A DNA stretch of 64,000 nt from Paenibacillus sp. YYML68 (GTDB lineage: Bacteria; Bacillota; Bacilli; Paenibacillales; NBRC-103111). The translations under genes and the position numbers were made by a program. The stretch spans positions 1,962,501 to 2,026,500 of the forward strand of contig NZ_BQYI01000001.1 in the NCBI RefSeq assembly GCF_027923405.1, written 5' to 3'. Shown here in pieces: positions 10,658 through 64,000 of the stretch; position 1 is the first letter of the stretch; every line of letters begins with the position of its first letter. Under the pieces are notes generated by a model that did no database searches, was not told where the DNA came from, and worked only from the letters and a program-made list of their open reading frames with translations.

Positions 10658-10814
10658 TAGCTGTAAGTACCCTCCTTGGCACGGCTTGTATACTTACAAC
10701 GTATGAGCCTCGGTCAAGCCTCATGACTGATTCAATATGGTTGGGAAATGATCGGTTTTCTGCTACAATGGAACTTGTCTTGTCTCTTGGGAGGCGGGCG
10801 CCTTACGAAATCGA

Positions 10815-11447
10815 ATGCTGGAGCGTGGCAACTTGGAGCACTTGCTGCATTTAATAGATCAATTTGGATATGTAGCTCTGTACGGCTTATTGGCTCTCGG
10901 TATCGTCGGTATTCCGATTCCCGACGAGATTCTGATGACGACCGTGGGCACCTTGACGATCGGGCATGATCCTGTCATGTCGTTCGTTCCTGCGCTCTTG
11001 GTCAGCTTCGCCGGCGCGATGACGGGGATGAGCGTAAGCTATGCGATCGGTCGACGGGTCGGGAAGCCGTTCCTGTATCGACATGCCAAGAAGATCAAGC
11101 TTACACCTGAGAAGCTCGCCTCTGCCGAGCGTTGGTTTGACAAGTATGGCCTGTGGGCGGTCGCCTTCGGCTATTACGTCCCAGGACTGCGTCACTTGAC
11201 CTGTTACTTGTCCGGGGTTAGCAATGTGAAGCTGGGACGCTACCTGCTGTTCGCAGGCATCGGGGGGTTCATCTGGTGTACGACATTTCTTGCGCTCGGT
11301 CATTTCATAGGGCGTAAGGCATACTTCCTGCTTCGGCATCTCCATCACTATACAGCACCTATTCTCGTCGTGCTCGCTGTCCTTGCGATCTGCTATTACT
11401 TGTTCTGGAGATATCGCAGACAGCGCTTCCGACGCACGGATACTTAA
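10815..11447 (+). CDS. DedA family (VTT domain) membrane protein
   Basis: A 210-residue member of the DedA family. It shows the family pattern LALGIVGIPIPDEILMTTVG (re-entrant helix with acidic residue) and, in the second half, FGYYVPGLRHLTCYLSG followed by RYLLFAGIGGFIWCTTFLALGHFIG. DedA proteins are undecaprenyl-phosphate or phospholipid scramblase-like proteins that recycle lipid carrier across the membrane. ATG 10815 lies far (20 bases) from GGGAGG; TTG 10833, which follows TGGAG, is an alternative start. Ends at a bidirectional terminator. Confidence 0.85.
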   Translation: MLERGNLEHLLHLIDQFGYVALYGLLALGIVGIPIPDEILMTTVGTLTIGHDPVMSFVPALLVSFAGAMTGMSVSYAIGRRVGKPFLYRHAKKIKLTPEKLASAERWFDKYGLWAVAFGYYVPGLRHLTCYLSGVSNVKLGRYLLFAGIGGFIWCTTFLALGHFIGRKAYFLLRHLHHYTAPILVVLAVLAICYYLFWRYRRQRFRRTDT

Positions 11448-11461
11448 GCCGCCGTGTATAA

Positions 11462-11506
11462 AATAAGCCTCGACTCACCGGCATCTGCCGACAGTCGAGG
11501 CTTATT
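11462..11506. terminator. Bidirectional intrinsic terminator between the DedA and lipoprotein genes
   Basis: A perfect 14-bp stem (AATAAGCCTCGACT / AGTCGAGGCTTATT) with a 17-base loop. The A/T-rich flanks on both sides allow use by the two convergent genes. Confidence 0.9.
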
Positions 11507-11507
11507 A

Positions 11508-12227
11508 TTATTCAGCAAAAAGCTTGATCGAGTTAATCGTCTGCGTCTTCGGATCGATATCGAGCTTCAGTACGGAGCCGGACGCCTTATACGTAATGAC
11601 GTAATTGGAGTTCGTCGTTGGCTTGCCTAGTGCCTTCGTAATGCTGCTGGTCGGGTCGCCAAGCTTGACGCCATTCAATCCGGTGTCGATCTTCTCACTG
11701 CGCACATCGATGAAGTGCACCTGATCCAGCGAGTCGAAGCCAATCAAGAAATCGGTATAGTCATATACCGTGATCGGGTCCTCGTCCTCATCCATGATGA
11801 ACTCTTCCTTTGGCTTCCCTAAATCCTCAATGATCGAGGACCGCTTCGTCTTCAGGGTAATGCCTAGCAGCGTTGGCTTCGCCTGCGAGTATGGAGTATC
11901 AATCTTGATCGTCGGCTTCTGGCCCTCGCCAGACTTGTCTGCACTGCCTTGCGCCGGCTTGAGATCCTTATCCGTATTCGCGCTGGCGAGTGCGACCTTA
12001 TCATCACCAGCGGGCAGCGGCGTTGTCGGTGCAGGCACCTGCTTGCCGTCCGAATGCTCGGCGGTAGCGGGCGGTAGGGTCGACGTAGCTTCTACGAATT
12101 GCTCGTGGGGGTTAGGCTGCTGCTCGTGTGGCGAGGCTTGCGGCTTGGGCTCACAGCCGGCTAGCAGCAGCAGTGCCACGCTTATAACAACGGACAAGAA
12201 ACCGATGAATGCTTTTCTACGGTTCAT
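11508..12227 (-). CDS. Secreted lipoprotein with two tandem SmpA/DUF4309-like motifs
   Basis: A 239-residue lipoprotein: basic N-terminus, hydrophobic stretch and lipobox LLAGC at about residues 21-25. A long Pro/Ser/Lys-rich linker follows. The C-terminal part contains two related units, LLGITLKTKRSSIIEDLGKP and LNGVKLGDPTSSITKALGKP, each followed by a beta-rich segment. This resembles the small two-layer repeats of DUF4309/SmpA-like lipoproteins of Paenibacillus. It is expected to be anchored on the outer face of the membrane; function unknown. Confidence 0.72.
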   Translation of the reverse strand: MNRRKAFIGFLSVVISVALLLLAGCEPKPQASPHEQQPNPHEQFVEATSTLPPATAEHSDGKQVPAPTTPLPAGDDKVALASANTDKDLKPAQGSADKSGEGQKPTIKIDTPYSQAKPTLLGITLKTKRSSIIEDLGKPKEEFIMDEDEDPITVYDYTDFLIGFDSLDQVHFIDVRSEKIDTGLNGVKLGDPTSSITKALGKPTTNSNYVITYKASGSVLKLDIDPKTQTINSIKLFAE

Positions 12228-12547
12228 CCTAAACGTCCTTTCCGTATATATGTATCTATCGTTTTGTTAACTTCATAATCATACTCCGTCACGCTGTCGG
12301 ATACAAAGACGAAATTAGCTCAAATTAAGTGAAATAGAACGCTGAGAGGCTGAATTTATTTTCATAGCTTCATTCTCGTGGTGCAGAGCTTTCTTTATTG
12401 AATTCTTACCCATATAGACGAAATAAAATCAGGAAAGTTGCAGCTTCAGCAGATTTTGTTAATTTTAACCCGAATACTTGAAACGAGCGCGGTCATTGTG
12501 ATAAGTTTTAACAAAAAAGAGGCTGATTGTCGAAAGGCGTGGAGCGC
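12228..12547. other. AT-rich intergenic region upstream of xpt
   Basis: About 320 bases between divergent genes. A weak promoter-like pair, TTGAAA near 12479 and GATAAG near 12500, could serve xpt. I looked specifically for a purine riboswitch core, which commonly controls xpt in Bacillus, and saw none. Confidence 0.4.
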
Positions 12548-14722: not shown

Positions 14723-14806
14723 GCGTTCGTGGCGGAATTGGCAGACGCGCTAGATTCAGGTTCTAGTGGGGTAACAGCCGTGGAGGTTCGAGTCCTCTCG
14801 AGCGCA
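14723..14806 (+). tRNA. tRNA-Leu(CAG)
   Basis: 84 bases. Acceptor stem GCGTTCG / CGAGCGC, anticodon stem CTAGA/TCTAG with loop TTCAGGT giving anticodon CAG, a long class II variable arm and the T-arm GAGGTTCGAGTCCTC. CCA is not encoded. Confidence 0.95.
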
Positions 14807-14832
14807 TTTTCTTTTGCTTTTAGCTGTACCAA

Positions 14833-14917
14833 GCAGTCGTGGCGGAATTGGCAGACGCGCACGGTTCAGGTCCGTGTGGGCTAACCCCCCGTGGAGGTTC
14901 GAGTCCTCTCGACTGCA
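14833..14917 (+). tRNA. tRNA-Leu(CAG), second copy
   Basis: 85 bases, 26 bases after the first. Acceptor stem GCAGTCG / CGACTGC, anticodon stem CACGG/CCGTG with the same loop TTCAGGT (anticodon CAG). The D- and T-arms match the first copy but both acceptor and anticodon stems differ, so this is not a recent duplication. CCA is not encoded. Confidence 0.95.
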
Positions 14918-47913: not shown

Positions 47914-48082
47914 GGGATTCGATTGACGAGTAGTTCTATAATTCTGTGATTTTGCATAATAGGTGAGAATTTTTACTCACTAGTTGAGAAATATTCGTCA
48001 TATATATTGAGAAAAATGAATCAATACAATGCGTTGTATATTTATGCATCGATGAATGTGTTTGCTCAAGCATTTTAAGTGT

Positions 48083-48127
48083 AAACCAGCCTGTAGCGGC
48101 AGAATTTCAGCAGCTACAGGCTGGTTT
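48083..48127. terminator. Strong hairpin, likely nrdJ terminator
   Basis: A perfect 15-bp stem AAACCAGCCTGTAGC / GCTACAGGCTGGTTT with a 15-base loop, 170 bases after nrdJ. The T tail is short on the plus strand. Confidence 0.75.
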
Positions 48128-48190
48128 CACGATCAGGATTATTGAGGTTAGATTTGCTGTGTGGCGACTTCTTAGGGGCTTAAGTTTGGT

Positions 48191-48346
48191 ATGGATAACT
48201 TGAATAATGATTCGGTATCCAATCACCAAAACATTCTGCAATGTATTCCGGTTGAATTGGGGCTTAATCTGGGAGAGTGTGCTTCTTCAGAGTCGGTGGT
48301 GTATTATGATAATAATTATGATTCGGTGGTAACGGAAATTGAATAA
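48191..48346 (+). CDS. Possible small protein, 51 residues
   Basis: ATG 48191 to TAA 48346 encodes an Asn-, Ser- and Glu-rich peptide (begins MDNLNNDSVSNHQNILQCIP, ends SVVTEIE). The ribosome site is weak (AGGGG 15 bases away). It lies between two hairpins with related sequence (CAGCTACAGGCTG). A 20-residue frame, 48016-48078, precedes the first hairpin. Either may be accidental. Confidence 0.25.
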   Translation: MDNLNNDSVSNHQNILQCIPVELGLNLGECASSESVVYYDNNYDSVVTEIE

Positions 48347-48438
48347 GAAGAAATTGGGGAGTATCGAATGGACATTTCGCTGCGTCAGTAAAAAACATAT
48401 CTTGTCCCAAAATTCATACTGGTTTACATTCAATGAGT

Positions 48439-48489
48439 AAAAACAGCTTGTATCAGCAAACACATTTGCACAGCTACAGGCTGTTTTTC
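48439..48489. terminator. Bidirectional terminator
   Basis: AAAAACAGCTTGTA pairs with TACAGGCTGTTTTT (one wobble), with a smaller GCAAA/TTTGC hairpin in the loop. It serves at least the minus-strand gene ending at 48510. Confidence 0.85.
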
Positions 48490-48509
48490 ATGAACAAAAT
48501 TATTAGCGG

Positions 48510-48794
48510 TTAGTATTGTCGGGTGGTGGTAATTGCTCGTGGTCTTGAAAGTAGGGTGTTGCGAAACTCATTGAGTGTTTTCGTATATGGAGGAAAATCA
48601 TTTATGATGAAATCAATCGGTGTTGTATTCTCGACCGCAGGATGAGTGAGCATATGAATTAATCGTAAAGCATGTTTTAGTCCAGCGATTTTCCCCATGT
48701 CATACTCAGTAGGTTTTTGCTGTCTTTCTGCATCCTTTAAGGCAAAATGTAATGCGTCAAGTATGATGTCCTTCGCAATCGTTTTATCGCTCAT
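48510..48794 (-). CDS. Hypothetical protein
   Basis: A 94-residue helical protein (KTIAKDIILDALHFALKDAE, KIAGLKHALRLIHMLTH) from ATG 48794, after a weak GGTGATG. AT-rich compared with nrdJ. It was probably the second gene of a pair whose first gene is truncated by an IS3 element at ~48930. Family not recognised. Confidence 0.5.
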   Translation of the reverse strand: MSDKTIAKDIILDALHFALKDAERQQKPTEYDMGKIAGLKHALRLIHMLTHPAVENTTPIDFIINDFPPYTKTLNEFRNTLLSRPRAITTTRQY

Positions 48795-48813
48795 TGAATC
48801 ATCACCTAAACTC

Positions 48814-48935
48814 TTACTTTTTCCATTTCTCCTTTTGTATCCTGTAAGCCTCCAAGCAACGGGTCAAAAAATCTCCTTCATCCTCGGTTAATGCTTCCTT
48901 GTTTCGGTAATTGTCAAGATAGTTGTCGCGATTAA
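48814..48935 (-). pseudogene. 3' remnant of a gene truncated by IS3
   Basis: The last ~40 codons before the stop at 48814 (NYRNKEALTEDEGDFLTRCL, then EAYRIQKEKWKK) read like a genuine charged, helical protein end and lie 20 bases upstream of the next gene. Upstream of ~48935 the sequence becomes IS3 transposase DNA, so the rest of the gene is gone. The exact junction is not certain. Confidence 0.4.
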
Positions 48936-48940
48936 ATAAA

Positions 48941-49357
48941 TTAAGACAGCATAGATTCCGTCTTCTGCTCAGCTTGAAGAACGGTCGCTTTCTCAGGATT
49001 GAGCCAAACTTCTTCATCCAAGCTCCAATCCCGTGTAGCCCCCGACCAGCGACCAGGATGAAGAGTTTTGGCAGCTTCATAAACCTGCCGCCGCTTCTCA
49101 AATACCTGTTCGGACTGCCCTTTATGCCTCTGACTAGGCGTGAGGAAATTAAGGCCGCTGTGTCGATGCTCGTGGTTGTACCAGTGTACAAAACGCAGCA
49201 CCCATTCTCGGGCCTCCATACGATCTTTAAACCCTCGCTCCGGGTATCCTGGACGGTACTTGCATGTACGGAAGACGGACTCCGCATAAGGATTGTCATT
49301 GCTTACCCGCGGGCGACTCCTGGAAGGCGTGATCCCTAAGCTATACAGCGTTTCGAG
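48941..49357 (-). pseudogene. IS3-family transposase OrfB, C-terminal fragment
   Basis: The frame shows the end of the rve integrase core: SNDNPYAESVFRTCKYRPGY (the Glu of DDE follows the NDNP pattern), then FVHWYNHEHRHSGLNFLTPS. It ends in the stop at 48941. The N-terminal part, including the first two catalytic Asp, is cut off exactly where the IS66 left end begins (49358). Non-functional. Confidence 0.85.
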
Positions 49358-49413: not shown

Positions 49414-50987
49414 TTACTTCTTATTCATACGACATTCAGCCGGGAGCGATCCCGACCATGGCATGAATGAATCGAGTGCTGGTTCATCAAGCGGATCAGG
49501 CAACTGAGGCAACTGCTCGAATAGATACTTCAAGTAGTTGTACGGATGCAGTCCGTTTTCCTTGGCTGTCTCAATCATGCTATAGATGACAGCGCTCGCC
49601 TTCGCTCCTCGCGGCGTGTTCGCGAACAGCCAGTTCTTCCGGCCGATCACAAACGGTTTAATGGAGCGTTCACTTCGGTTGTTGTCGATCTCCAGCCGTC
49701 CATTTTCCATGAAGGCCGTCAACTTCTCCCACTGGTTCAAGCTGTAGGCAATCGCCTGACCGGTCAAGCTCTTCGGCAATGTCCGAGAACGCTGTTGCTT
49801 GAGCCAAGCTTTGTAGGCTTCAATACGGGAGCACTGCGCTTCTGCCGCTCTTCATGCCGCTCTTCCGGTGAAGCCTCCGCAAGCTCGCGCTCGATTGCAA
49901 ACAACTGATTGCAATAAGCCAATCCTTGTCCCGCGACACTGCCGAGCGTTCCCGTCTCTGGGGGAGCTCCCTTCAATGCTTCATCGAACTTGCGACGCGC
50001 ATGCGCCCAGCAGCCGACGAGCTTGACCTTCGCGACCTTGTGGTATCCGGCGTAGCCGTCCACATGCAGATAGCCTGTAAATCCAGCCAGGAAATTCCGA
50101 GGATGCTCGCCGCCCCGCGTCCGCTGGTAGTCATACAGCACAACCGGCGGTATCCCGCGGCCTGTGCGATACAGCCACAGATACGAGGTGGATTCTGCCG
50201 ATTTGCCCGGCTCCCGCAGCACCTGAAGGGTCGTTTCATCCGCATGCAGCGCATCCTGACTAAGCAGATAACGCTTCATCGCTTCATACATCGGCATGAG
50301 CCACTTCTCAGCTCCGTAGATCATCCAGTTCGCCATCGTCTGCCGGGAGAGCGAATAGCCCAGCCGGGCAAAAGCTTGCTCCTGTCGATACAGCGGCAAA
50401 CTGTCCACGTACTTCTGACACATGACATGAGATAGGATGGACGGCGAAGCCAAGCTGCCGGGATAGACCGGCTTCGGCATGGGCGCGGTGACGATTGGCG
50501 TCTGCAGCTCATGGCGCTCACAGTGACGGCAGGAGTAGACCTGACGCACATGACGCATCACCTTGACCTGTGGCGGTACAATGGCAATCTCGCTGCGCGT
50601 CTCGGTCGTCATCTCGTGCAGCGAACCGCCGCAGCATGCGCAGAGCTGCTGACCTTCTTCCAGTGTATAGACAATAGTCTCCACGGGCAGGTTGGACAGA
50701 TCTTCCTCACGCTTGCCGGAAGACTTCCGGCGCTCATACGTCACCTTCTCCATTGGCGGTTCTTCACCAGCTGGTGTTGCCAGCATTTCCGCTTCGTTGA
50801 ACAGGTTCAGCTCGAGTTGATCCGGATGCGTCTTCTCGCTGGAAGAGCCGAAACGTTTCTGCTGAGCCAGACGGAATTGCTCCTCGTACCATTTGAGCTT
50901 GGCCGATAGTTCTACGTTCTGTTCTTCCAGCTTCTTATTTTGTTGTTGGAGTTCTTCGAGAGTTGGGGAATCCGGTCGCTTATCCAT
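49414..50987 (-). pseudogene. tnpC: IS66 TnpC transposase, frameshifted
   Basis: From ATG 50987 (MDKRPDSPTLEELQQQNKKL) the protein runs through a leucine zipper, a zinc-finger-like region (CACCGG, YSCRHCERHE) and the DDE core (QDALHADETTLQVL, LHVDGYAGYHKV, CWAHARRKFDEAL). Near 49820 a base is missing (TTGAAGCC where TTGGAAGCC is expected) and the frame shifts. The C-terminal piece ending at 49414 carries RLEIDNNRSERSIKPFVIGR with the last Glu. TnpC should be inactive unless frameshifting rescues it. Confidence 0.85.
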
Positions 50988-51058
50988 AACGGATATATTC
51001 GTCAGCAGATGGCTCTCGCCTGCTGCTAGATAAGGCGATTCCGCGAACAATGTATGGA

Positions 51059-51412
51059 TTACCAGGCGTTGTCTGCTGTAACGGCCCGGTGTGCCTGCCG
51101 CTGTGTGAGCGCCAGTCCATCCAGCAGCCAGCGTAGCTCGCGTGCCGAGATCGCAACCGTACGTTCCGTGCTGCTCGGCCATTGGAAGGTGCCGCGCTCT
51201 AACCGGCGATAAAATAGCCAGAAGCCGTTATGGTCCCAGTACAGCAGTTTGAGCTTGTTGCGCTCTCGATTGCAGAAGACGAAGAGGCACTTGGAGAAGG
51301 GATTCAGGCCAAAGCATTCTTGAACGATTGCCGCCAGTCCGTCAATCGATTTTCGAAGATCCGTTGCTCCAGCGGCCAGATAGACCTGATGCGCACTCGA
51401 GATGCTCAGCAT
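51059..51412 (-). CDS. tnpB: IS66 TnpB (Orf2)
   Basis: 117 residues with the TnpB signature VYLAAGATDLRKSIDGLAAI, LFVFCNRERNKLKLLYWD and GFWLFYRRLERGTFQWP. TnpB is an accessory protein needed for IS66 transposition. It overlaps tnpA by seven bases. Confidence 0.93.
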   Translation of the reverse strand: MLSISSAHQVYLAAGATDLRKSIDGLAAIVQECFGLNPFSKCLFVFCNRERNKLKLLYWDHNGFWLFYRRLERGTFQWPSSTERTVAISARELRWLLDGLALTQRQAHRAVTADNAW

Positions 51413-51735
51413 GAGACCGTTAGAGCGCTGACGACGTCATGAAGAAGCTTGGCATCGAAGCCTGATCGTACTTCAAGACGAGCGGCACCCGCATGAACGA
51501 TGATGCAGGAGGATGTTGGATTACTCGAATCCGATAGGGTCAGTGGAATGAAGGAATTACTGGTGTTGCCAGAGGATTTACCAGAAGTACGTTCGTTAAG
51601 TGTACGAAGCCAATAACGCAATTGGTCCTTGGTCACGCCTTGTTCGGCGCACCATGCTTTCATGGTCTGTCCGCTCGCTTCATAGTCCGAGACACGAGCG
51701 ATCCATTCTTGTCTTCTCAGCTCTTTCTTCGTCAT
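51406..51735 (-). CDS. tnpA: IS66 TnpA (Orf1)
   Basis: 109 residues, helix-turn-helix type: WIARVSDYEASGQTMKAWCA followed by TKDQLRYWLRTL. First gene of the element. Confidence 0.9.
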   Translation of the reverse strand: MTKKELRRQEWIARVSDYEASGQTMKAWCAEQGVTKDQLRYWLRTLNERTSGKSSGNTSNSFIPLTLSDSSNPTSSCIIVHAGAARLEVRSGFDAKLLHDVVSALTVSC

Positions 51736-51993
51736 GAGTATAAGCCTCCATCTCTGAATAACGTTGGCCTTATCTTCTCATAACGATTCATCTTGTTGAA
51801 GGTGTGCTAGGTTTGACGCTTACGCTTGTTTACCTCTGCCTCGAGCGCTTCGCTGTATGTTTTGTATTCATCTAGTGTTTGGGGTTGGGCTGATTCCGCA
51901 CGTTTTGTCATGAAGAATGTATTCGCTGAACGACTACGTTTATCCTGCATTTCAAGTAAACATGATGGAGGTAGGCACGATGATTATTCGCGC

Positions 51994-54647: not shown

Positions 54648-55418
54648 CTAAAGTTCGACATTACTTCTATGTATTCCACGGACATACATGGTTTGACTTA
54701 AAGGGGTTATTTGTATTCCTTGGAAATTAATGTGATAAGGGCTTTTATAAATCCAATGTATAGTTTCTGCTAAGTCTTTTGCCTCAAGTGGGAGAAATCC
54801 TGAATAACGATTTTCGTTATTATTAGTTGACTGCCCCTCCAATAAGGCGGTACGAGTTGTACCTGGCTCAATACAACAAATTCTTATGTTTAAACCATGG
54901 ATGTCTGAACGAATTGAACGCAACAAATGAGATAAATATGATTTTGTTGCGGAATACACCGCCATATTTGGCGCAGAATCATGAGCTGCAATTGAACTAA
55001 TTACTATTAACGTTCCTTTGCCTTTAGAAATAAAATATTTTATCGCATTCTGAATAAATAATGTAGTTCCAATAATATTGGTTTTTATTTGTTCCATGAT
55101 ATCGAGTTGATCCATTTCGTGGAAAGGTTTCCCTTGCCTTGCGCAACCAGCAGCGTGAACGATTAAGTCAATATCATGGATACCATGCATCTCCTTGTAT
55201 ATTTCTTCAAATATAAGCTGTTCTTCACTAATATCCTTACAGAGATATTCAAAGTTGTCTGTCCAGTCGTCCTTAATCTTCATAAGTTCTATTTTATTTC
55301 GTGCAAGCCCAATAACTTTGTAGCCATTTCGAAGAAAGAACAAAACCGTTTCTTTACCTATGCCAGAAGAAGCGCCTGTAATAAGACATGCGCAATCATT
55401 GTTCTGATCTGCATTCAT
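54648..55418 (-). CDS. Short-chain dehydrogenase/reductase
   Basis: A 256-residue classical SDR. CLITGASSGIGKETVLFFLR binds the nucleotide; LIVHAAGCARQG, LIVISSIAAHDSAPNMAVYS and YSATKSYLSHL give the Ser-Tyr-Lys catalytic set, and CCIEPGTTRTALLEG closes the site. The Arg after the second strand (GLARNKIEL) points to NADP. Substrate unknown. It is the last gene of the minus-strand arm of the accessory cluster and AT-rich, so it may be a tailoring reductase of the pathway encoded here. Confidence 0.88.
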   Translation of the reverse strand: MNADQNNDCACLITGASSGIGKETVLFFLRNGYKVIGLARNKIELMKIKDDWTDNFEYLCKDISEEQLIFEEIYKEMHGIHDIDLIVHAAGCARQGKPFHEMDQLDIMEQIKTNIIGTTLFIQNAIKYFISKGKGTLIVISSIAAHDSAPNMAVYSATKSYLSHLLRSIRSDIHGLNIRICCIEPGTTRTALLEGQSTNNNENRYSGFLPLEAKDLAETIHWIYKSPYHINFQGIQITPLSQTMYVRGIHRSNVEL

Positions 55419-55472
55419 AGAATATTTTTCCGCTCCACTCTACTAAAGAATAATAGCAATTATTGAATGTGC

Positions 55473-56267
55473 TCAATTCCCGGTTCCTTGATAATTTTTG
55501 AGGCCGAATTTCCAAAAGCGATATACAACAACAAAGAAGATAATGCTAACAATTAACGAACAATTTCCCAATATATAGCTCAAGCTTTCTTGAGGGAACT
55601 TCTCAATGAGAACGCCTACAGGATAATATGTTATAAATGCCATAGGCACTATAGTGAAAAATACATGTAAAGAAAAATCGTAAGCAGATAACGGAAAAGT
55701 CATATAGTTTACACTCAACGTCCACCCCATAAAAGTTAGGGAATTATTGTTTATCATCCAAAATACCATTGTTGCCCATAAAATTAATAATCCTGCTTGT
55801 ATTATTGCACCAGCAAGTAAAAATTCACTCAATTGAATGAATTTTATCAAGCTCCAAGTAACAACTTCCTTACTACTCAAAAAAATCGTAGTAGCTCCAA
55901 TCAAAGTATGTACCCAAGCTGTCAAATCCGATTTGCCACAAATCACTTGAAACAGAACATTGTTGGGACGTAATAGGTATATGTCTAAATCCCCGGTATG
56001 AACTAACCTTCTAAAATCTCTTATTCCTGCACAAAATATCAGTTGAAATCCATATGTAAAAAGCCAAAAGCCATATAGCAAACTTACTTCGTAAATATTC
56101 CATCCGTTTATTGTTCCAAAAAAATGTAAAATGGTCCAAAGAGGCAGATACTGACTACAATAAAGGAAAAGGGCACCAAAACTTGATGCGATAAAATTGA
56201 AACGATAAACAGAATTGGATTTAATTTGGGATTTTATGTACATGTAGAATAATATCATATAGTCCAT
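55473..56267 (-). CDS. ABC-2 type permease (DUF990-like), second subunit
   Basis: 264 residues from ATG 56267, just after GGAGG; a longer in-frame start inside the upstream gene is unlikely. Six hydrophobic segments (FIASSFGALFLYCSQYLPLW, VSLLYGFWLFTYGFQLIF, ...). HTGDLDIYLLRPNNVLFQVI is the conserved cytoplasmic loop seen in DUF990 permeases. It pairs with the permease upstream and the ATPase to form an exporter. Confidence 0.83.
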   Translation of the reverse strand: MDYMILFYMYIKSQIKSNSVYRFNFIASSFGALFLYCSQYLPLWTILHFFGTINGWNIYEVSLLYGFWLFTYGFQLIFCAGIRDFRRLVHTGDLDIYLLRPNNVLFQVICGKSDLTAWVHTLIGATTIFLSSKEVVTWSLIKFIQLSEFLLAGAIIQAGLLILWATMVFWMINNNSLTFMGWTLSVNYMTFPLSAYDFSLHVFFTIVPMAFITYYPVGVLIEKFPQESLSYILGNCSLIVSIIFFVVVYRFWKFGLKNYQGTGN

Positions 56268-56268
56268 A

Positions 56269-57084
56269 TTATCCTCCATTAATGGAGACTCTTTGAAGAG
56301 CTCTATTCCAGATGAAATGAGCTGTAAAAGCAATTACTATGATCCAAAATAATTGTAAAAAGATGTTCCCTAGAAGCTCTGAAATAAGGTACTCATGTAT
56401 ATATATTTGAATCGGAATAAAGATAACACAAGAAAAGGGGAGATAGTGGATAGCTTGATTTACTTCAGAAGGGAAAAACCAAAGTGGTACAAAGGCTCCT
56501 GACAAAAACAGAACAGTCTGCGTTTTTAATATATTCAGACTAGTAACTTGAGTTATCCAAAAAGTCATAATTGAAGTAATGAAATTGATATAGAACATGA
56601 CTAGGAAAGATAAGACTATACTTATAAGGAAGAAAAGCAAATGTAGAATCGATTTGGGAATCTGAAGGTCAATTGTAAAGTAGAAAAACGCAATGATTGG
56701 TAGTGTCTGGAAAAATAAGCGATTAATATATAAACCCATTTCTTGACTCATTAAGTAGGTAGTATATTGCATTGGACGTAATAGTTCGAATACAACCTCA
56801 CCAGACAGTACTCGTTGCTGTAATACTTCTACAAACTCCATATCAATTGAAGTGATGATTCTTGCAAGTATTAGGTAAGTGGATAATTGTTCTAAGTTGA
56901 TGCCATTAACCTCATCGCGTCCATGAAATAAAGTTTTCCAAAGTTCGATACTTAAATAAATGAATAGTACATTGCTAGCAAGTCCAATGAAGTAATTTCC
57001 CCTAAAAACCATAGAATTAATAAAGGATTGGCGAGCAATGATGTATGCTGTCTTACAAAAGTGTATAGAATTCGGAAGTTCCAT
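56269..57084 (-). CDS. ABC-2 type permease (DUF990-like), first subunit
   Basis: 271 residues with about six membrane helices (FIGLASNVLFIYLSIELW, LLFFLISIVLSFLVMFYINF). RVLSGEVVFELLRPMQYTTY is the same cytoplasmic loop as in its partner. ATG 57084 directly follows the stop of the ATPase gene and is preceded by GGAG. Together with the next gene it forms a heterodimeric membrane channel. Confidence 0.83.
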   Translation of the reverse strand: MELPNSIHFCKTAYIIARQSFINSMVFRGNYFIGLASNVLFIYLSIELWKTLFHGRDEVNGINLEQLSTYLILARIITSIDMEFVEVLQQRVLSGEVVFELLRPMQYTTYLMSQEMGLYINRLFFQTLPIIAFFYFTIDLQIPKSILHLLFFLISIVLSFLVMFYINFITSIMTFWITQVTSLNILKTQTVLFLSGAFVPLWFFPSEVNQAIHYLPFSCVIFIPIQIYIHEYLISELLGNIFLQLFWIIVIAFTAHFIWNRALQRVSINGG

Positions 57085-58080
57085 TTAACGCTCCTCTATT
57101 TTCGTTTGATTGTTTGCGTTGTAAACATTTCGTACTAAATGCTCTATTTTTGGTTCTTCTATACTACAGTCAATTACAGGATATTCAGAAATAATAGATT
57201 CGATTAGTTTTGTCGCTGAAATGTCTTCCTTACTAAACAAAATTCTTGCTTCTTTATTATTGAAAGAAAGTAGAACTCCGGATTTTAAAGATATATCTGT
57301 AATTTCATTTTCAAAATGAATAGTTAGTATTCGTTCCTTGCCAAAATGTTCAATAAACTTTATTGTTCCGCCATTATACAGAATTTGACCATGATCAATA
57401 AGAATCATTCGATCAGAAACTTGCTCAATATCATCCATGTCATGCGATGTCAAAATAATAGTCGTTTTCTTTTCTGTTTTGATTTCACGTAGAAAGCTTC
57501 TTATGCGTTCTTTTGCAACTACGTCAAGACCAATTGTAGGTTCATCTAAGTAAACGATTGTTGGATCATGTAAAAATGCACATGCAATTTCAGCTCTCAT
57601 TCTCTGGCCAAGACTTAATTGACGAACAGGAATTGAAGAAAATTCATCTAACCTGAGAAGTTCGGTCATTAAGTTTAAATTTTGTTTGAATTTTGAGTGT
57701 TTTATTTTATATATAAATCTAAATAATTCAAAAGATTCATGGATGGCTAAGTCCCATAGGAGTTGACTACGTTGTCCGAATACTGTTCCTATTTGTAATG
57801 CGTTTTCTTTACGGTTTATTTTAGGATTGATGCCGTTTACAAGAACGGCTCCGCTTGTTGGTTGTAAAATCCCAGTTAATAACTTTATGGTTGTAGATTT
57901 TCCAGACCCATTTGTACCAATATATCCAACTGCTTCACCTTGATTAATATTGAAGTTTATCCCTCGAACTGCTTCTTTTGTTTTTTTTATAGGAGAAAAT
58001 AAATCGTTAAGGGAACCCCAAAATCCCTTTCGTTGCTCCTGATAGGTATATACTTTCCACAAATCTTTTGCTTCTATCAT
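57085..58080 (-). CDS. ABC transporter ATP-binding protein (exporter)
   Basis: 331 residues from ATG 58080 after GGGAGGG. Walker A GYIGTNGSGKSTTIKLLTG, Q-loop region GTVFGQRSQLLWDLAI, signature RQLSLGQRMRAEIACAFLHD, Walker B TIVYLDEPTIGLDVVAKE and switch ILTSHDMDDIEQV. The N-terminal ~35 residues and GQRSQLLWDL are typical of ATPases paired with DUF990 permeases. Powers export of the cluster product, by inference from the context. First gene of the minus-strand arm, divergent from the cupin gene. Confidence 0.92.
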   Translation of the reverse strand: MIEAKDLWKVYTYQEQRKGFWGSLNDLFSPIKKTKEAVRGINFNINQGEAVGYIGTNGSGKSTTIKLLTGILQPTSGAVLVNGINPKINRKENALQIGTVFGQRSQLLWDLAIHESFELFRFIYKIKHSKFKQNLNLMTELLRLDEFSSIPVRQLSLGQRMRAEIACAFLHDPTIVYLDEPTIGLDVVAKERIRSFLREIKTEKKTTIILTSHDMDDIEQVSDRMILIDHGQILYNGGTIKFIEHFGKERILTIHFENEITDISLKSGVLLSFNNKEARILFSKEDISATKLIESIISEYPVIDCSIEEPKIEHLVRNVYNANNQTKIEER

Positions 58081-58241
58081 GTGCAAGTTCCCTCCCCTAA
58101 AATTTAGAAAAACGAATCTAATAGTGATTATAATTTAATTTTCATGAATATGGAATAAGTATACAATAATTTAATAAGAGCTGGAGTCAAGTATTGCGGA
58201 TATGAGAGAATTTTAATAAATTGTAAAAATATACTTTTCTG

Positions 58242-58271
58242 TTGCATGCATCAAATAGATGAGTGTAATAT
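58242..58271 (+). promoter_or_regulatory. Probable promoter of the cupin-cyclohydrolase arm
   Basis: TTGCAT (58242-58247), 18-base spacer, TAATAT (58266-58271), 40 bases before the cupin start. The surrounding 230-base divergent region is very AT-rich. Confidence 0.5.
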
Positions 58272-58311
58272 AAATGACATCCGAAAATTATTTTAGAGGA
58301 GGGTATTCAAA

Positions 58312-58998
58312 ATGTTTGAACAAATTATTAAATCTGGTTCGGTTGAGACTACTGTATTACAACATGGCTTAGTATTTGATTGTAGTAAGGGGATGTACCC
58401 AAGTCGAGTAAGTGGCTACGTAGGAAATTCTACTATGAGAATCGGATCCGATGTGACAACACTCTATGGTTACGTTTATGAATCGGGACTTATCATAAAA
58501 GTAGGCGGACAAGTTTGGGGACCTCTTCAAAACGGTTATTATTTTTCTGTTGTCGGGGAATGCGAGTTATCAGGTAATGGTAAAGCGGTTTTTTTTGAAA
58601 GAGTCGGATTTAGAGGACAACAATGTATAGGTGGTCCAACAGAAGAAAGAGGTAGAGTAAGTTATATTGATGGCTGTAGCGATTCCATTTTGATATATCC
58701 ACCAAGAATGGGAGATCCGTGCTTGAATTTATTGTGGTTTCCCAAAAATATTAGGCAATCGATGCATATTCATCCTACTGTTCGTCTTGGATTAGTAATT
58801 AAAGGGGAAGGTAGATGCATTACTCCTGAAGGTGAGCTGCCTTTAAAAGAAGGCAACATTTTTTATTTGGCCGAAATGGGACAACACTGTTTTTATACTG
58901 ATGATTCGCAAATGGCAATCGTCGCCTATCATCCAGATAGTGATTGGGGACCGACAGATACAAATCATCCAATGTTAAATCGGACATTTATTCGTTAA
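58312..58998 (+). CDS. Cupin domain protein
   Basis: 228 residues from ATG 58312 after GGAGGG. The C-terminal half is a cupin: RQSMHIHPTVRLGLVIKGEG supplies the HxH metal pair, but the usual Glu of motif 1 is replaced, and LKEGNIFYLAEMGQHCFYT supplies the motif 2 His. The N-terminal half (TTLYGYVYESGLIIKVGGQV) is a second beta-rich, possibly cupin-like, barrel. Could be a metal-dependent isomerase, oxygenase or sensor. It lies 34 bases before the cyclohydrolase gene and is surely co-transcribed. Confidence 0.78.
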   Translation: MFEQIIKSGSVETTVLQHGLVFDCSKGMYPSRVSGYVGNSTMRIGSDVTTLYGYVYESGLIIKVGGQVWGPLQNGYYFSVVGECELSGNGKAVFFERVGFRGQQCIGGPTEERGRVSYIDGCSDSILIYPPRMGDPCLNLLWFPKNIRQSMHIHPTVRLGLVIKGEGRCITPEGELPLKEGNIFYLAEMGQHCFYTDDSQMAIVAYHPDSDWGPTDTNHPMLNRTFIR

Positions 58999-59032
58999 CA
59001 ATCGAGTTTCAATATATGGAGGGGTCTCACTC

Positions 59033-60349
59033 ATGATCAATTCTATTAACTCAATCGAAACACAAAGGGTACCAGCCATTCGGGGACCTATTAAACTTCC
59101 TCTTAAGATAGGAAATAGCACTCATAACTTTGAACTTAAATACTTCGAATATTCAGGAGAAAGATATGCGGTTGCTTGTTTAGGTGAAGTATCCCAAGAT
59201 GAATATATTCCTCTTCGAATCGAATCAGCTTGTTTATTTGGACATGTTTTTAATTCTGATAAATGTGATTGTGGGTTTCAACTTAAAGAGGCGCTAAAAA
59301 GAATAGCAGAGCATAAAAAAGGTATGGTTATTTATGCGATTGACCAAGATGCTAGAGGGTTAGGCATTGAATCACATTTTAGAATTTATGTTATGCGGCA
59401 ACATGAAAACTTAGATACAGATGAATTATACAACAGACTTGGATCGCCGGTAGACGCTCGAAACTATGAGCATGTTGCTGATATTCTACAGAGTTATAAC
59501 ATTAAAAAGATTTTGTTGATGTCAAATAATAGGCATAGAAGGGAATTTTTAACTGAAAAGGGATTTCAATTAGAGATTGAACCCATTGAGGCTCCATTGA
59601 ACTTTAATAACATGGCTACCTTAATGCTTGAAAAGGAAGATTTACCTTATGATTTCCACTTCAAAACTCACAGTGACTGGTTGAAGTCGATTCAAGAGGA
59701 AGTGGATGGTGATTTAAATGCAACAGTTATACAGATAATTTCAGGGACAGAGGAAGTTATCCTTCATTCAAAAGTTTTGGAAACATGGAATCTGGCTAGT
59801 GAAGTAACTAAGAACTTAACTAATAATGATTTGAAGAGTAACGATTCCAATATCATTTATTTGACTGACTTTCCTAGAATAGATGAACTTGAAAGTTATT
59901 CTGCAATAGGGGCGAAAATGATAGTTCTACCTTTTTCTGAAATTCCGTCTTGGTTGTATAATGAGGCCGAAAAGCATAAGATTATCATTCAAGACTGGGG
60001 CAGAAAAAACAAATATGTGATCGAAAGGCCTCAATGGAACTTATTGAAAGACTATCAATTTATGCATGTGTATGTTAGAGGGGATAAAACTAGATGTGTA
60101 TTTGTTGGAGAAAATAGTAATCAAAACATGAACTACTTAATGGAGGGTTATAAAAATTTAAATACAATACTACTCGGAAGCAGTCCTGAGATTACGCATA
60201 TTTTTGAAGGAGATTGTCCGTGGTTCGAACTTCAGCAACCCATCGGTAAAGCTAACGGCATTTCGTATAATTCACCGGATTTTGTATTAGAATTTCTTAA
60301 ATATAATCTAGAAGAATATTTTGTTTTATGCCCAAAATTAAATAAATGA
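59033..60349 (+). CDS. GTP cyclohydrolase II-like enzyme with novel C-terminal extension
   Basis: 438 residues from ATG 59033 after GGAGGGG. Residues ~1-205 are a RibA-type cyclohydrolase II: ACLFGHVFNSDKCDCGFQLK keeps the three zinc cysteines, FRIYV keeps the catalytic tyrosine, and LGSPVDARNY keeps the Asp and nucleophilic Arg (E. coli Tyr105, Asp126, Arg128). The GTP loop differs: IDQDARGLGI replaces HRQEGRNIGL. The remaining ~230 residues (SDWLKSIQEEVDGDLNAT to the end) match nothing I know. No other riboflavin gene is here, so it most likely feeds a special metabolite rather than riboflavin. Confidence 0.87.
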   Translation: MINSINSIETQRVPAIRGPIKLPLKIGNSTHNFELKYFEYSGERYAVACLGEVSQDEYIPLRIESACLFGHVFNSDKCDCGFQLKEALKRIAEHKKGMVIYAIDQDARGLGIESHFRIYVMRQHENLDTDELYNRLGSPVDARNYEHVADILQSYNIKKILLMSNNRHRREFLTEKGFQLEIEPIEAPLNFNNMATLMLEKEDLPYDFHFKTHSDWLKSIQEEVDGDLNATVIQIISGTEEVILHSKVLETWNLASEVTKNLTNNDLKSNDSNIIYLTDFPRIDELESYSAIGAKMIVLPFSEIPSWLYNEAEKHKIIIQDWGRKNKYVIERPQWNLLKDYQFMHVYVRGDKTRCVFVGENSNQNMNYLMEGYKNLNTILLGSSPEITHIFEGDCPWFELQQPIGKANGISYNSPDFVLEFLKYNLEEYFVLCPKLNK

Positions 60350-60479
60350 GCATTTTGCATAATTCCGTTTTTGAAAATTAGGCAGTAAATTCTTGGACCT
60401 AAAACACGGTATATTAGCTCAGCCGACCCTTAAATTTCAAAAATGGGCAGACCTGCAGTGTTTCTGCTGAATCAAAAAT

Positions 60480-61690
60480 TTATGTGGAGGATTCCTTGTA
60501 ATGGCGGGCCATCGCTAACGCAGAAGCCAGCAACACAATGGCGTTTAGATATTGGTGAGTGGTCACTTTTTGAATGCCCCAGACGTGCATGGCGTCTGCG
60601 GTCAGATATGTTTTCAACCGGGAGTTACATCGCTCAACGCTTGATCTTTCGTTATAAAGCTCCTTCCAGCGTTTCGTGTCCCGATGTGGACTGGAGTAGC
60701 ACCGTAGAACGCTTTTCGTAACGACATTGATGACCATTCCATAGTTTGAAGATGAGCATGCACGGACAGTCGACCTTCCCTGTGGCATGAGGGCAGCGGA
60801 ATCTCAGGTGATCGCCATCGGCGCCCCAATAGGTCATGGCAAAACCCATCGAGCAGCAGGGCGTACCGCTAGAGGTCATGCCCGCAGACGATTCCTTTTC
60901 ATTACGAAGGTTCATCGGAATAATTGCTTGTGCCTTTACGTTCCGCACGGCTTCGTAGTTTATAAGTTGGTCATACGCGGCATCCAGCATAAAGAACTTC
61001 ACTTTCGAACCCTTAGCCACTTGCTCCATAAGAGCAGAGCCAAATCGCCGTCATTGACGTGCGCCGGTGTAACTGAGAGCGCCACGGGCAACTCGCTCGT
61101 GGTGTCAACGGCAAGATGGAGCTTGTAGCCAAACCACTTGACCTTATTGCCAAAGGAGTCAAACTTCGCGCCCCAGTTGGCATTCCCGGTCAGTTCGCTT
61201 TTCCGTTTAGGCTGCTTTTTCTCATAAGCAAGGATCGCTGTGCTATTAATTGCAATGTGACTTCCATCGATGATTCCTTTTTGCATGCAGCGTGTTAAGA
61301 GATCCTCAGACAGACGTTTCGCCAGTCCCTTGTTCGTTAGCTCGGTGAAGACTCGGCTTAACGCCGCTATCGACGGAGCTTCCCGATCAAGTCGGAGTCC
61401 ACATTGATAACGAAAACGAAGACCCACGTCCAAACGACGATGCAAGTCACTAAAGGTATCGATATTCTCAAACGGTGCGGCAAGCAGGGCCCGAAGCCTG
61501 CAATGCCCATCGGCACCTCGGGGTGATTAACCTCTCAATTCCTTAGCATAAGGTCGTAAATCTAAGGTATTGAAGAAGATAGGTAGACGTTCTTTGGATT
61601 CAAGTTTTTGCAATTCCTCAAAAGAAAATAGATTTTCTTGGAGAATACAAGTGACTTCATGTCCTTGGTTGTTTTCGGGTTTGGTCTCTT
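60480..61690 (-). pseudogene. IS transposase (DDE, IS4/IS1182-like), broken by stop and frameshifts
   Basis: Starting near 61690 on the minus strand the frame reads ENLFSFEELQKLESKERLPI and LDLRPYAKELRG, then an in-frame TAA at 61527-61529, then SPRGADGH, RLRALLAAPFENIDTFSDLH, IIDGSHIAINSTAILAYEKK and NWGAKFDSFGNKVKWFGYKL. Frameshifts near 61015 and 60770 separate the later parts (KFFMLDAAYDQLINYEAVRN; WKELYNERSSVERCNSRLK with the final Glu). It inserted between two genes of the accessory cluster and then died; the ends are not clear. Confidence 0.85.
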
Positions 61691-61819
61691 GAAAACTTCT
61701 CCAAGTTGGGGTGAATTCCCTTTTTTATGTTCAAAACTCCTTGTCTAGCAAGGGCTCAGATTTATGCAAAATGCTCAAATAATAACTTTGATAGTGCTTA
61801 TTTAAAAAGGGGGGCTTGC

Positions 61820-62524
61820 ATGAATTGTTCGAGTAAAGGTAAAGCGACATGTCTGCCCAGGAATAAGGCATTAGAATTAATGAGCAAGGAGCAATCAAAG
61901 TTAATTTTTATTGATTCAGCTGATTGTGCTCCGAGTGAAATGCAACAATTTCAATGCTTTAATCCTTTTCGATTTGACCCCCAAATACTAATACCTGTTC
62001 CTGGACAAGAAAGCTTTTCATATTCGATTGAAGCAATTTGGCAAGGTTTAAAGATATTTGATGGAAAAATTGATTCAGATATGTTTCATAAGAAGCCGTA
62101 TAAAAGGCCTTTGGAAGCGGAGCAAACCGAATACAGCTACAGTGATACAGTATTTTGTTACAAAAACTATATCATTGATATCGTAACTGCAAGATTTCTT
62201 ATTTATTTACCATCATATCTTTATTTGTTGGATAGAATATTACCTCAAGATTTGTGTAATGAAATTTTTAAATATCTTCAATGTGATTGCGATATCATCT
62301 TCTATGATTGGGATAGTAACTTTGATATTTATAATAAATTTGAATCATTCAGTCATTCTGCTATTCTTACATCTTGGTTTAATGGAACATTGGAAAAGGA
62401 TTTTCTTTATGATCTTACTAAAATAAAATTGGAAGCTGGAATTAATGAAAAAATGAATCTAGATTTAACTCGATATTTGAATGTACATCAAAAATCAAGG
62501 GGTATTCTTAATGAAATTATCTGA
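61820..62524 (+). CDS. DUF6939-like protein with NADAR-type ExxWQxxK motif
   Basis: 234 residues from ATG 61820, placed by the strong AGGGGGG just upstream; a longer start at 61727 has no ribosome site. The N-terminus is cysteine-rich (MNCSSKGKATC, DSADCAPSEM). The motif SYSIEAIWQGLKIFDG (Glu71, Trp74, Gln75, Lys78) matches the E-x-x-[YW]-Q-x-x-K pattern of NADAR/YbiA N-glycosidases. IYLPSYLYLLDRIL, DIIFYDWDSNFDI and SFSHSAIL follow, as I recall from the DUF6939 family. If it acts like YbiA it would cut ribose phosphate from the cyclohydrolase product. Overlaps the next gene by 14 bases. Confidence 0.65.
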   Translation: MNCSSKGKATCLPRNKALELMSKEQSKLIFIDSADCAPSEMQQFQCFNPFRFDPQILIPVPGQESFSYSIEAIWQGLKIFDGKIDSDMFHKKPYKRPLEAEQTEYSYSDTVFCYKNYIIDIVTARFLIYLPSYLYLLDRILPQDLCNEIFKYLQCDCDIIFYDWDSNFDIYNKFESFSHSAILTSWFNGTLEKDFLYDLTKIKLEAGINEKMNLDLTRYLNVHQKSRGILNEII

Positions 62525-63905
62525 AGACATAGCAAGAAACATGTACTGGAAACTGCAAGATTTAAGGGGTAAGTCTGATATAGCAAAAAGATTGCAAATT
62601 TTAAGAAAAACCCAGCACATGAGACCTGAAGAAATAAAGACATTGCAATTTGATAAATTATTGACTATTTTAAAACATGCTTATAATACAGTGCCGTACT
62701 ATAAACAGATATTTCAGGAAAGAGGAATTTCGCCCCATGATTTTAACTGTTTTGAGGATATGCAACAGATTCCTCTGTTAACACGTGATTTATTGCGATC
62801 GAAACAGAATGAATTGATATCTACAGAAGCTGACTTTGCTACTATTCAAAATAACTATAGCAGTGGATCCACAGGAGTGAGAGCAGAATTTAAACAAGAT
62901 TTAAATTTTCGATTATGGATGAGAGCCCATCAGATTAGAACTTATGAGTGGTGTAACGATTGGCAACTAGGCAATCCATTCGTATTGTTATGGGGCTCAG
63001 AGATTTATTGGTCTTATAAACGAGTACTCGATATGATCGATAACTTTCTGACAAATAGAAGAGAATTTAATACGTTTAATTTAAGTAATGATCTGATAAA
63101 TAAGTTTTTAGATAAATTAATTACATTTAACCCGTATTTAGTAAGTACTTATACTAACGCAATGCATCTCATTGCCAAACGTGCCGAAGAACGAAATGTA
63201 ACTATTAAAGGCTTAAAAGCAATACAGGCGACATCTGAACCTGTGCCAACTGCTGTCAGAGATCGTATGAAGAAGGTGTTTGGCTGTGAAATTTATGATA
63301 AATATGGAATGAGAGAAAGTAATATTATTTCACATGAAAGTCCTCTTCACGATGGAATGTGTATTCAATCTGAAAATGTGTATGTTGAGTTTTTGAAACC
63401 AGATGGGTCCCCTTGTAAATATGGTGAAAAAGGAAAAGTAGTAGTCACAACTCTAAATAATTTGTCTATGCCATTAATTCGCTATGAAACTAGTGATTTG
63501 GCTGCTCCATTGGCTGGTTATTGTTCTTCTGGTATTGGTTTACCACGTATGACTTCAGTAACGGGTAGATTACAGGATCTTATTATTTCGCCCACTGGAT
63601 CCCATATTGATGCATATTTCTTTTCATATTTGATTATGAGATATCCTCAAATACATTGGTTCCAGGTTGTTCAATCGGAGCTAGAGCGACTGAATATTCA
63701 TTTATATGCACCAAATGGAATTATAACAGAGTTACGCAATGAAATTGTGGAGAGGATCCATCATCATACTGGATTTCCATTTAATATTGAATTTGAATTA
63801 TTGTCAGAAATGCCGATCTCTTCTACAGGGAAATTTAGGCTATGCGTTAGTGAATTGGGGAAGAGTTACTCTGAGATAGCAGCAACCGGAAGTGGAAAAT
63901 TATGA
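62511..63905 (+). CDS. PaaK/CapK-type adenylate-forming enzyme
   Basis: 464 residues from ATG 62511 after AAGGGG, overlapping the preceding gene. It resembles phenylacetate-CoA ligase/CapK/coenzyme F390 synthetase proteins: NTVPYYKQIFQERGI, IPLLTRDLL, the ATP-loop YSSGSTGVRAEFKQD, KAIQATSEPVPTAVRDRM, YDKYGMRESNIISHE, VVVTTLNNLSMPLIRYETSD and the hinge VTGRLQDLIISPTG. It should activate a carboxylic acid as its AMP ester for transfer to a thiol or an amine. Its acid is unknown; the context suggests joining to a pyrimidine-type amine. Coupled to the next gene (ATGA). Confidence 0.86.
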   Translation: MKLSEDIARNMYWKLQDLRGKSDIAKRLQILRKTQHMRPEEIKTLQFDKLLTILKHAYNTVPYYKQIFQERGISPHDFNCFEDMQQIPLLTRDLLRSKQNELISTEADFATIQNNYSSGSTGVRAEFKQDLNFRLWMRAHQIRTYEWCNDWQLGNPFVLLWGSEIYWSYKRVLDMIDNFLTNRREFNTFNLSNDLINKFLDKLITFNPYLVSTYTNAMHLIAKRAEERNVTIKGLKAIQATSEPVPTAVRDRMKKVFGCEIYDKYGMRESNIISHESPLHDGMCIQSENVYVEFLKPDGSPCKYGEKGKVVVTTLNNLSMPLIRYETSDLAAPLAGYCSSGIGLPRMTSVTGRLQDLIISPTGSHIDAYFFSYLIMRYPQIHWFQVVQSELERLNIHLYAPNGIITELRNEIVERIHHHTGFPFNIEFELLSEMPISSTGKFRLCVSELGKSYSEIAATGSGKL

Positions 63906-64000
63906 TCATTCCGGAGTGGTTAACTGATCATAAATACAAAGTTGAACCCCCGCCTGAGCGAGAACACGTAAATAATGTAAAGTGGACCCGGAAAGATGAG
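63902..64000 (+). CDS. Start of a further cluster gene (runs off right edge)
   Basis: ATG 63902 overlaps the stop of the adenylate-forming enzyme and the frame stays open for 33 codons to the window end (MIIPEWLTDHKYKVEPPPER, then a charged stretch). Too short to identify. The coupling shows the operon continues to the right. Confidence 0.6.
   Translation, partial: MIIPEWLTDHKYKVEPPPEREHVNNVKWTRKDE

Follow-up and report, generated by a model that had tools for sequence, protein, structure and literature searches.

A 64,000-nucleotide stretch of the Paenibacillus sp. YYML68 genome (the window; positions 1,962,501-2,026,500 of a 5.09-Mb single contig) carries at its right edge half of a gene cluster for which we propose, with chances that we judge evenly balanced, a role in specialised metabolism: a GTP-derived product would be joined to proline through a paralogue of prolyl-tRNA synthetase (ProRS), and a second ProRS would provide self-resistance. 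The proposal builds on seven genes, encoding a GTP cyclohydrolase II (GCHII)-like enzyme, a DUF6939 protein, a CapK/PaaK-type adenylate-forming enzyme (CapK), a ProRS-like protein, a P-loop protein, an Ldh_2 dehydrogenase and an HpcH/HpaI-type aldolase (HpaI). Gene content, gene order and the occurrence of this core in two phyla are direct observations: Amycolatopsis has the same seven genes in identical order, and the set is not a chance assembly. An earlier note on the window had recognised part of the cluster and suggested that a free triaminopyrimidine is made, linked to an activated acid and exported.

The gene set in Paenibacillus and Amycolatopsis

When a DUF6939 alignment was run against 84,980 species genomes, 425 relatives emerged; the 80 best loci were retained. 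Within these 80, the locus of Amycolatopsis pretoriensis DSM 44654 (L056), a type-collection strain of another phylum, stood out (E = 3e-58; next best 2e-24). Here the GCHII-like, DUF6939, CapK, ProRS-like, P-loop, Ldh_2 and HpaI genes are arranged as in the window's cluster and share 44, 40, 59, 34, 37, 32 and 53% identity with it, respectively; a gene for a full ProRS follows, and the P-loop and Ldh_2 proteins share one open frame. All seven core frames are open in Paenibacillus and align with their Amycolatopsis counterparts over most of their length. Co-occurrence of the GCHII-like, DUF6939 and CapK genes in other genomes, which the earlier note had named as the test of its own proposal, was thus found in one independent locus. 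The same note had advised following the DNA to the right; its last "coupled gene", at 63902, proved to be the start of the ProRS-like gene, and the operon continues beyond position 64000. With a ProRS paralogue, the P-loop, Ldh_2 and aldolase genes and the remains of a ProRS gene coming next in the operon, the likely product and target change.

The set is rare. At E <= 1e-4 it was found in L056 alone among the best 80 of the 425 loci and four plasmid loci, an absence that carries little weight as some loci are short; 0 of the 4 plasmid records with DUF6939 had it. Five other loci (L058, L069, L085, L096 and L127) have a match to a short-chain dehydrogenase/reductase (SDR) or an ABC ATPase beside DUF6939. 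A profile of the ProRS-like protein matched 2 of 390 Amycolatopsis-family genomes at E <= 1e-20, namely A. pretoriensis (990 bits) and one other (77 bits, taken as an ordinary ProRS). At E <= 1e-30 it matched only A. pretoriensis itself among 394 sampled genomes of the Amycolatopsis class, and only the window's own genome among 398 sampled genomes of its phylum. Among 30 relatives (own genome included), matches besides the own gene did not exceed 46 bits, and three weak plasmid matches comprised two annotated proline--tRNA ligases and one unannotated protein. Of 197 genomes, only the own one yielded DUF6939. When cupin, GCHII extension and DUF6939 were combined into one query, 2 of 398 genomes in the class matched: the own genome and a weak match (E = 1e-4) running across three stops. 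No relative was recovered with the GCHII-like protein as query against the 84,980 species genomes. As the earlier note had supposed, no pathway with this gene set appeared in the open literature searched (subscription papers lay mostly outside the search), nor did any paper on DUF6939. A Prevotellaceae metagenome-assembled genome has a DUF6939 locus with a GCHII match (L093).

Predicted functions of the core enzymes

The GCHII-like protein matches PF00925, as the earlier note had read it, and scores below the RibA equivalog and subfamily cut-offs of NCBIfam (113.3 of 148 and 101.6 of 205.85 bits); by these scores it is related to RibA and not classed as RibA. Its C67, C78, C80, Y119, D141 and R143 align with C54, C65, C67, Y105, D126 and R128 of E. 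coli GCHII, which we take to be the three zinc cysteines and the catalytic tyrosine, aspartate and arginine. All of these are also conserved in the Amycolatopsis protein (L056:8820-10007), whereas E92-G93 of the E. coli enzyme corresponds to D106-A107 in both clusters. No Pfam model matched the C-terminal extension, from about residue 200, yet much of it is common to both clusters, because the alignment of the pair spans residues 13-356. Another GCHII homologue lies elsewhere in the genome (31% identity, 420-aa frame), and the cluster copy is therefore an extra one. The enzyme is predicted to open GTP.

For the next protein, which the earlier note had called NADAR-like, the link finds support at the level of the DUF6939 family. 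Across 47 aligned members (46 from the 80 retained loci and the window's protein), E102, W105, Q106 and K109 do not vary, and 46 members also have D194. The seven-residue spacing of E102 and K109 equals that of E88 and K95 in the NADAR protein of E. coli C7, where E88, K95 and D171 act in catalysis according to the available part of PMC11543638. Paired by spacing and inference, not by direct alignment, E102, K109 and D194 are the likely counterparts of these three residues. The NADAR-DarT1 model PF22397 was matched weakly by 26 of the 47 members at E values up to 0.5 (best 1.4e-6). When seven DUF6939 proteins were compared with the NADAR model, three matched and only that of L094 exceeded the cut-off (31.2 of 27 bits). 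Of the 84 DUF6939 loci, 21 contain a DarT homologue. PDB sequence searches with DUF6939 gave chance-like matches only. In a tree of the 47 proteins the two cluster members form one clade (99/81), nearest to Woesearchaeota proteins. The E-K spacing, the weak model matches and the DarT loci support a link of DUF6939 to NADAR. The accessible text of PMC11543638 and PMC5312566 names early riboflavin intermediates and ADP-ribosylated guanine as compounds whose N-glycosidic bonds are cut by NADAR proteins; this fits the product of a GCHII, and the DUF6939 protein would be an N-glycosidase. A different context for the family is seen on a Bartonella plasmid, where a DUF6939 gene (L005:9998-10552) adjoins an RHS/type VI secretion set.

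The likely CapK start falls inside the DUF6939 gene, and the CapK and ProRS-like genes overlap by four bases. The similarity of the ProRS-like protein to archaeal-type ProRS covers most of its length (139.6 bits, two-row profile against 1nj1), and the C-terminal region aligns with 1nj1 nearly to the end. The protein retains the T-x-E motif and the arginines of motifs 2 and 3. In both clusters tyrosine takes the place of the GT-x-H histidine, and G-A that of the S/C-W/Y-G stretch preceding motif 3; we take both stretches to contribute proline-binding residues of ProRS. Since its score falls far short of the functional-ProRS equivalog cut-off TIGR00408 (118.5 of 437 bits) and its amino-acid pocket is changed, the protein is not an ordinary ProRS and probably has altered substrate use.

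ProRS copies and the surrounding island

The genome of Paenibacillus sp. YYML68 carries an archaeal-type ProRS in its dxr-rseP-proS-polC locus (601.1 bits, cut-off 437). The ProRS-like query found matches in 30 of 30 genomes, own included, mostly in open frames of 480-500 aa that we take to be archaeal-type ProRS. Bacterial-type ProRS is patchy in the same 30, with a match above 300 bits in 17 of them, 13 full-length and four in pieces. In L004, the 19.9-kb stretch to the right of the window (overlap 501 bases; window position = L004 position + 63499), an intact bacterial-type ProRS gene with a GC content of ~0.48 lies at 10814-12523, 3 kb past the Tmk-like gene. Its product shares 60-71% identity with full-length copies in relatives (best 71%) and 43% with the ProRS of the Amycolatopsis cluster, the own cluster ProRS being broken. 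Flanks of 16 such loci in relatives, several ending at contig ends, have nothing but ProRS in common with the own locus, although some relatives share neighbours with one another.

Between the GNAT and NTP_transf_5 genes of the cluster, ProRS pieces follow in order, matching residues 1-45 (60% identity) and 445-463 (53%), with the middle missing; a third, weak piece (residues 470-511, 29%) matched only the copy of relative G007. A. pretoriensis has two full bacterial-type ProRS, both above the cut-off (cluster copy 560.0 bits, other copy 577.6 bits) and 40% identical to each other. Judged from these alignments, ProRS is a cluster gene in Amycolatopsis, and a remnant of it sits near the matching place in Paenibacillus sp. 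YYML68. A tree of the ProRS copies was not used to judge descent, as two long branches meet in it. Two bacterial-type ProRS of about 440-450 aa in relatives (G005:C19:63729-64955 and G108:C69:46110-47378) give matches that skip query residues ~235-390, as if they had no editing domain.

The features of the island are collected in the table. Every gene that the earlier note had named lies where it was placed and agrees with its Pfam match, the cupin scoring below its cut-off and the exporter consisting of two ABC2_membrane_6 permeases and an ATPase. Also borne out is its description of an AT-rich island with divergent arms, the left on the minus strand (SDR, two permeases, ABC ATPase) and the right on the plus strand from the cupin onward. 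GC content is 0.29-0.39 from window position 55000 to about L004 position 8000, the insertion excepted, compared with 0.49-0.67 for most of the 1-kb windows between 40000 and 54000 to the left and 0.48-0.56 to the right. The island extends ~7.2 kb beyond the window's edge. A second AT-rich stretch (48000-48999, GC 0.39) has GC-rich flanks. A cupin relative in Paraburkholderia (46.8% identity over 68% of the query) was rejected as a cluster relative: an SDR match was the only one beside it, and the record is unannotated.

Features of the AT-rich island (coordinates in the window unless prefixed L004)
Feature	Position	Strand	Library match or remark
SDR-family dehydrogenase	54648..55418	-	Pfam adh_short, 125.9 bits
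ABC2_membrane_6 permease 2	55473..56333	-	103.9 bits (cut-off 22)
ABC2_membrane_6 permease 1	56269..57084	-	73.7 bits (cut-off 22)
ABC exporter ATPase	57085..58086	-	ABC_tran, 96.2 bits (cut-off 25)
Cupin-like protein, first gene of right arm	58312..58998	+	Pfam, 19.9 bits, weak, below cut-off 27.2
GCHII-like enzyme, C-terminal extension ~240 aa	59033..60349	+	PF00925, 103.8 bits (cut-off 23.3)
Stretch between GCHII-like and DUF6939 genes, DDE transposase pieces inside	60350..61726	.	library matches
DUF6939 protein, NADAR-related family	61727..62524	+	67.3 bits (cut-off 27)
CapK/PaaK-type adenylate-forming enzyme	62511..63905 (frame opens 62481)	+	AMP-binding, 30.5 bits (cut-off 29.9)
ProRS-like protein, 521 aa	63902..64000, continuing to L004:1968 (L004:403-1968)	+	archaeal-type ProRS paralogue
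P-loop protein	L004:1990-2505
Ldh_2	L004:2515-3588
HpcH/HpaI-type aldolase	L004:3585-4349
GNAT	L004:4361-4891
Remains of bacterial-type ProRS	~L004:4921-5202
NTP_transf_5	L004:5409-7076
Tmk-like	L004:7097-7735

An insertion, absent from the earlier note's description, splits the GCHII-like from the DUF6939 gene, whereas in Amycolatopsis the same two genes overlap by four bases. It contains DDE transposase pieces on the minus strand in three frames (60480-60788 and 60999-61445; ~60480-61445 overall); no model matched a piece at 60652-61029 within this gap. A 2.37-kb stretch of the IS66 insertion-sequence (IS) type at 49459-51827 recurs inverted at L004:17532-19901 with 99.96% identity, one copy on each side of the island, which is possibly a composite element. 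A 598-base piece beside it forms a direct repeat (99.8% identity), and a Mutator-type transposase gene follows the island (L004:8094-9209). Searches for RNA families, T-boxes included, gave nothing at the gathering score in L004 or three relative loci, and in the window only two tRNAs. Two tRNA-Leu(CAG) genes lie in tandem at 14723-14917. Promoter matches between the two arms (5 versus 2.9 expected) are not counted as evidence.

In L056, genes for a methyltransferase, PhyH, two proteins without a Pfam match, YcaO and TfuA lie upstream of the cluster on the same strand. The YcaO and TfuA genes are directly upstream (L056:5929-8336), and the nearest model for YcaO is McrA-glycine thioamidation (236 of 365 bits); with PhyH and the methyltransferase they possibly represent a thioamide step or a separate cluster.

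Proposed pathway and its alternatives

Each chemical step, the order of the steps, the product and its target are inferred. In the proposed pathway, the GCHII-like enzyme would open GTP to a diamino-ribosylamino-pyrimidinone phosphate, from which the DUF6939 protein would cut the N-glycosidic bond to release a free triaminopyrimidine. The aldolase, the Ldh_2 dehydrogenase and the P-loop protein, to judge from family reactions a hydroxy-acid module, would build or modify a hydroxy-acid unit, which CapK would then activate and join to the pyrimidine. Next, the ProRS-like paralogue would attach proline or an analogue of it, taken from Pro-tRNA in the manner of AcmF with alanine or activated through adenylation by the paralogue itself. 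The resulting compound would mimic prolyl-adenylate or a ligand of the proline/A76 site and inhibit ProRS, with the second full ProRS of the cluster as the self-resistance copy. The specific form in which a triaminopyrimidine, or a pteridine derived from it, is tied through a short hydroxy-acid linker to proline, imitates prolyl-adenylate or febrifugine binding and is countered by the second ProRS as a shield is offered tentatively and is rather unlikely to be right in full.

Known systems provide parts of this logic. In the ascamycin cluster, as far as the accessible part of PMC12945691 goes, AcmF is an alanyl-tRNA synthetase (AlaRS)-like transferase that has lost most ATP-binding residues, and AcmD is a second AlaRS that also gives self-resistance. 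Both systems combine a degenerate aminoacyl-tRNA synthetase (aaRS) paralogue with a full second aaRS of the same family; of these traits, the divergent paralogue is present in our operon, and a full second aaRS beside a copy elsewhere is present in Amycolatopsis, with only remains in Paenibacillus sp. YYML68. They differ in the aaRS family (alanine versus proline), in the scaffold (a nucleoside sulfamate versus a putative GCHII-route product) and in the fate of the ATP site, lost in AcmF, with the motif 2 and 3 arginines kept here. Similarly, the SB-203207/SB-203208 cluster encodes an isoleucyl-tRNA synthetase (IleRS)-like protein, SbzA, for aminoacyl transfer in the making of an aaRS inhibitor; in contrast to the ProRS-like protein, SbzA belongs to the IleRS family and keeps canonical IleRS architecture and weak aminoacylation activity, and the text available for it describes no AcmF-style residue loss (PMC12945691). 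Diversion of GTP to an antimicrobial by a GCHII homologue is described for the toxoflavin and pseudoiodinine clusters in the sections available of PMC9911603. In the pseudoiodinine cluster, RibD and methyltransferase genes are present; here no RibD was seen, and aaRS-type and adenylating enzymes occur instead. Coupling of GCHII to an N-glycosidase is known from Vibrio RibA-COG3236, a fusion acting on early riboflavin intermediates (PMC5312566, consulted in part); that protein serves the riboflavin pathway and belongs to the YbiA branch, whereas DUF6939 matches the DarT1-associated NADAR model only. Febrifugine and its analogue halofuginone inhibit ProRS by filling the proline and A76 sites (PMC7916415, in its available part); they are a plant compound and its analogue with no genetic relation to the cluster, and their resemblance to a pyrimidine or pteridine bearing proline is our analogy.

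Several results weigh against this proposal. Co-occurrence rests on one independent twin (two loci in total). At E <= 1e-3, neither L056 nor its 19.8-kb flanks (L140 and L141) contain a match to the exporter, SDR, cupin, GNAT, NTP_transf_5 or Tmk genes; the SDR, the cupin and what the earlier note called a dedicated exporter are therefore outside the conserved core. Conversely, the YcaO, TfuA, PhyH and methyltransferase genes of L056 were not seen in the Paenibacillus island. For both cluster DUF6939 proteins, DUF6939 was the sole match and no NADAR model was hit, and profile comparison (hhalign, hmmsearch) with a shallow set of 25 YbiA-type NADARs (PF08719) of relatives was negative. As the ProRS-like protein keeps the arginines of motifs 2 and 3 and AcmF lost most ATP-binding residues, the sequence gives tRNA-dependent transfer no advantage over own adenylation. 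The intact ProRS beyond the island appears to be an accessory gene in this genus rather than a member of the cluster, and the status of the other A. pretoriensis ProRS as the housekeeping copy is assumed. Finally, the insertion and the decayed ProRS gene may have silenced the cluster here; Amycolatopsis is the better host for tests.

The same damage could mean that the cluster of this genome is a decaying relic in an IS-rich region that makes nothing, which is quite possible although we incline against it: the transposase pieces, the broken ProRS gene and the inverted IS66-type stretch on both sides of the island favour it, but the seven core frames remain open and an intact bacterial-type ProRS lies nearby. 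If the GTP-derived route operates, the ProRS-like protein might instead be a direct ligase adenylating a non-proline acid from the aldolase and Ldh_2, with the second ProRS for resistance only. Its kept T-x-E and arginines and the pocket remodelled alike in both clusters would suit such a ligase; CapK, however, already activates acids, and the C-terminal region aligns with 1nj1 as if tRNA were still bound, and we regard this version as unlikely. The earlier note's product, an exported conjugate of a triaminopyrimidine and an activated acid in which neither proline nor ProRS has a part, draws support from the GCHII-like, DUF6939 and CapK genes, which are neighbours in the twin and belong, with HpaI, to its better conserved genes. 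The nature of the ProRS-like gene, the P-loop, Ldh_2 and aldolase genes and the ProRS remains lay outside what that note could see, and the four-base overlap of the ProRS-like and CapK genes, together with the full ProRS after HpaI in Amycolatopsis, makes a pathway without proline very unlikely. Least credible is a defence or nucleic-acid/protein modification system related to the DarT1-NADAR toxin-antitoxin pair. DUF6939 relatives do occur in DarT loci and share likely counterparts of E88, K95 and D171 (PMC11543638, available part), but no DarT match was found among the scanned island proteins or in L056, the cluster's DUF6939 pair forms its own clade, and the GCHII, aldolase, Ldh_2 and CapK families act on small molecules.

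Inhibitors of aaRS are useful antibiotics, and cispentacin and phosmidosine are microbial compounds tied to proline or ProRS. The sole natural ProRS ligand named in the consulted part of an aaRS-inhibitor review is febrifugine, a plant compound (PMC7916415). A ProRS paralogue and a second ProRS in one cluster point to the cluster's own target. If the proposed pathway is correct, the logic of AcmF and SbzA would extend to proline with a GTP-derived scaffold, and the unnamed DUF6939 family would gain a testable catalytic role.

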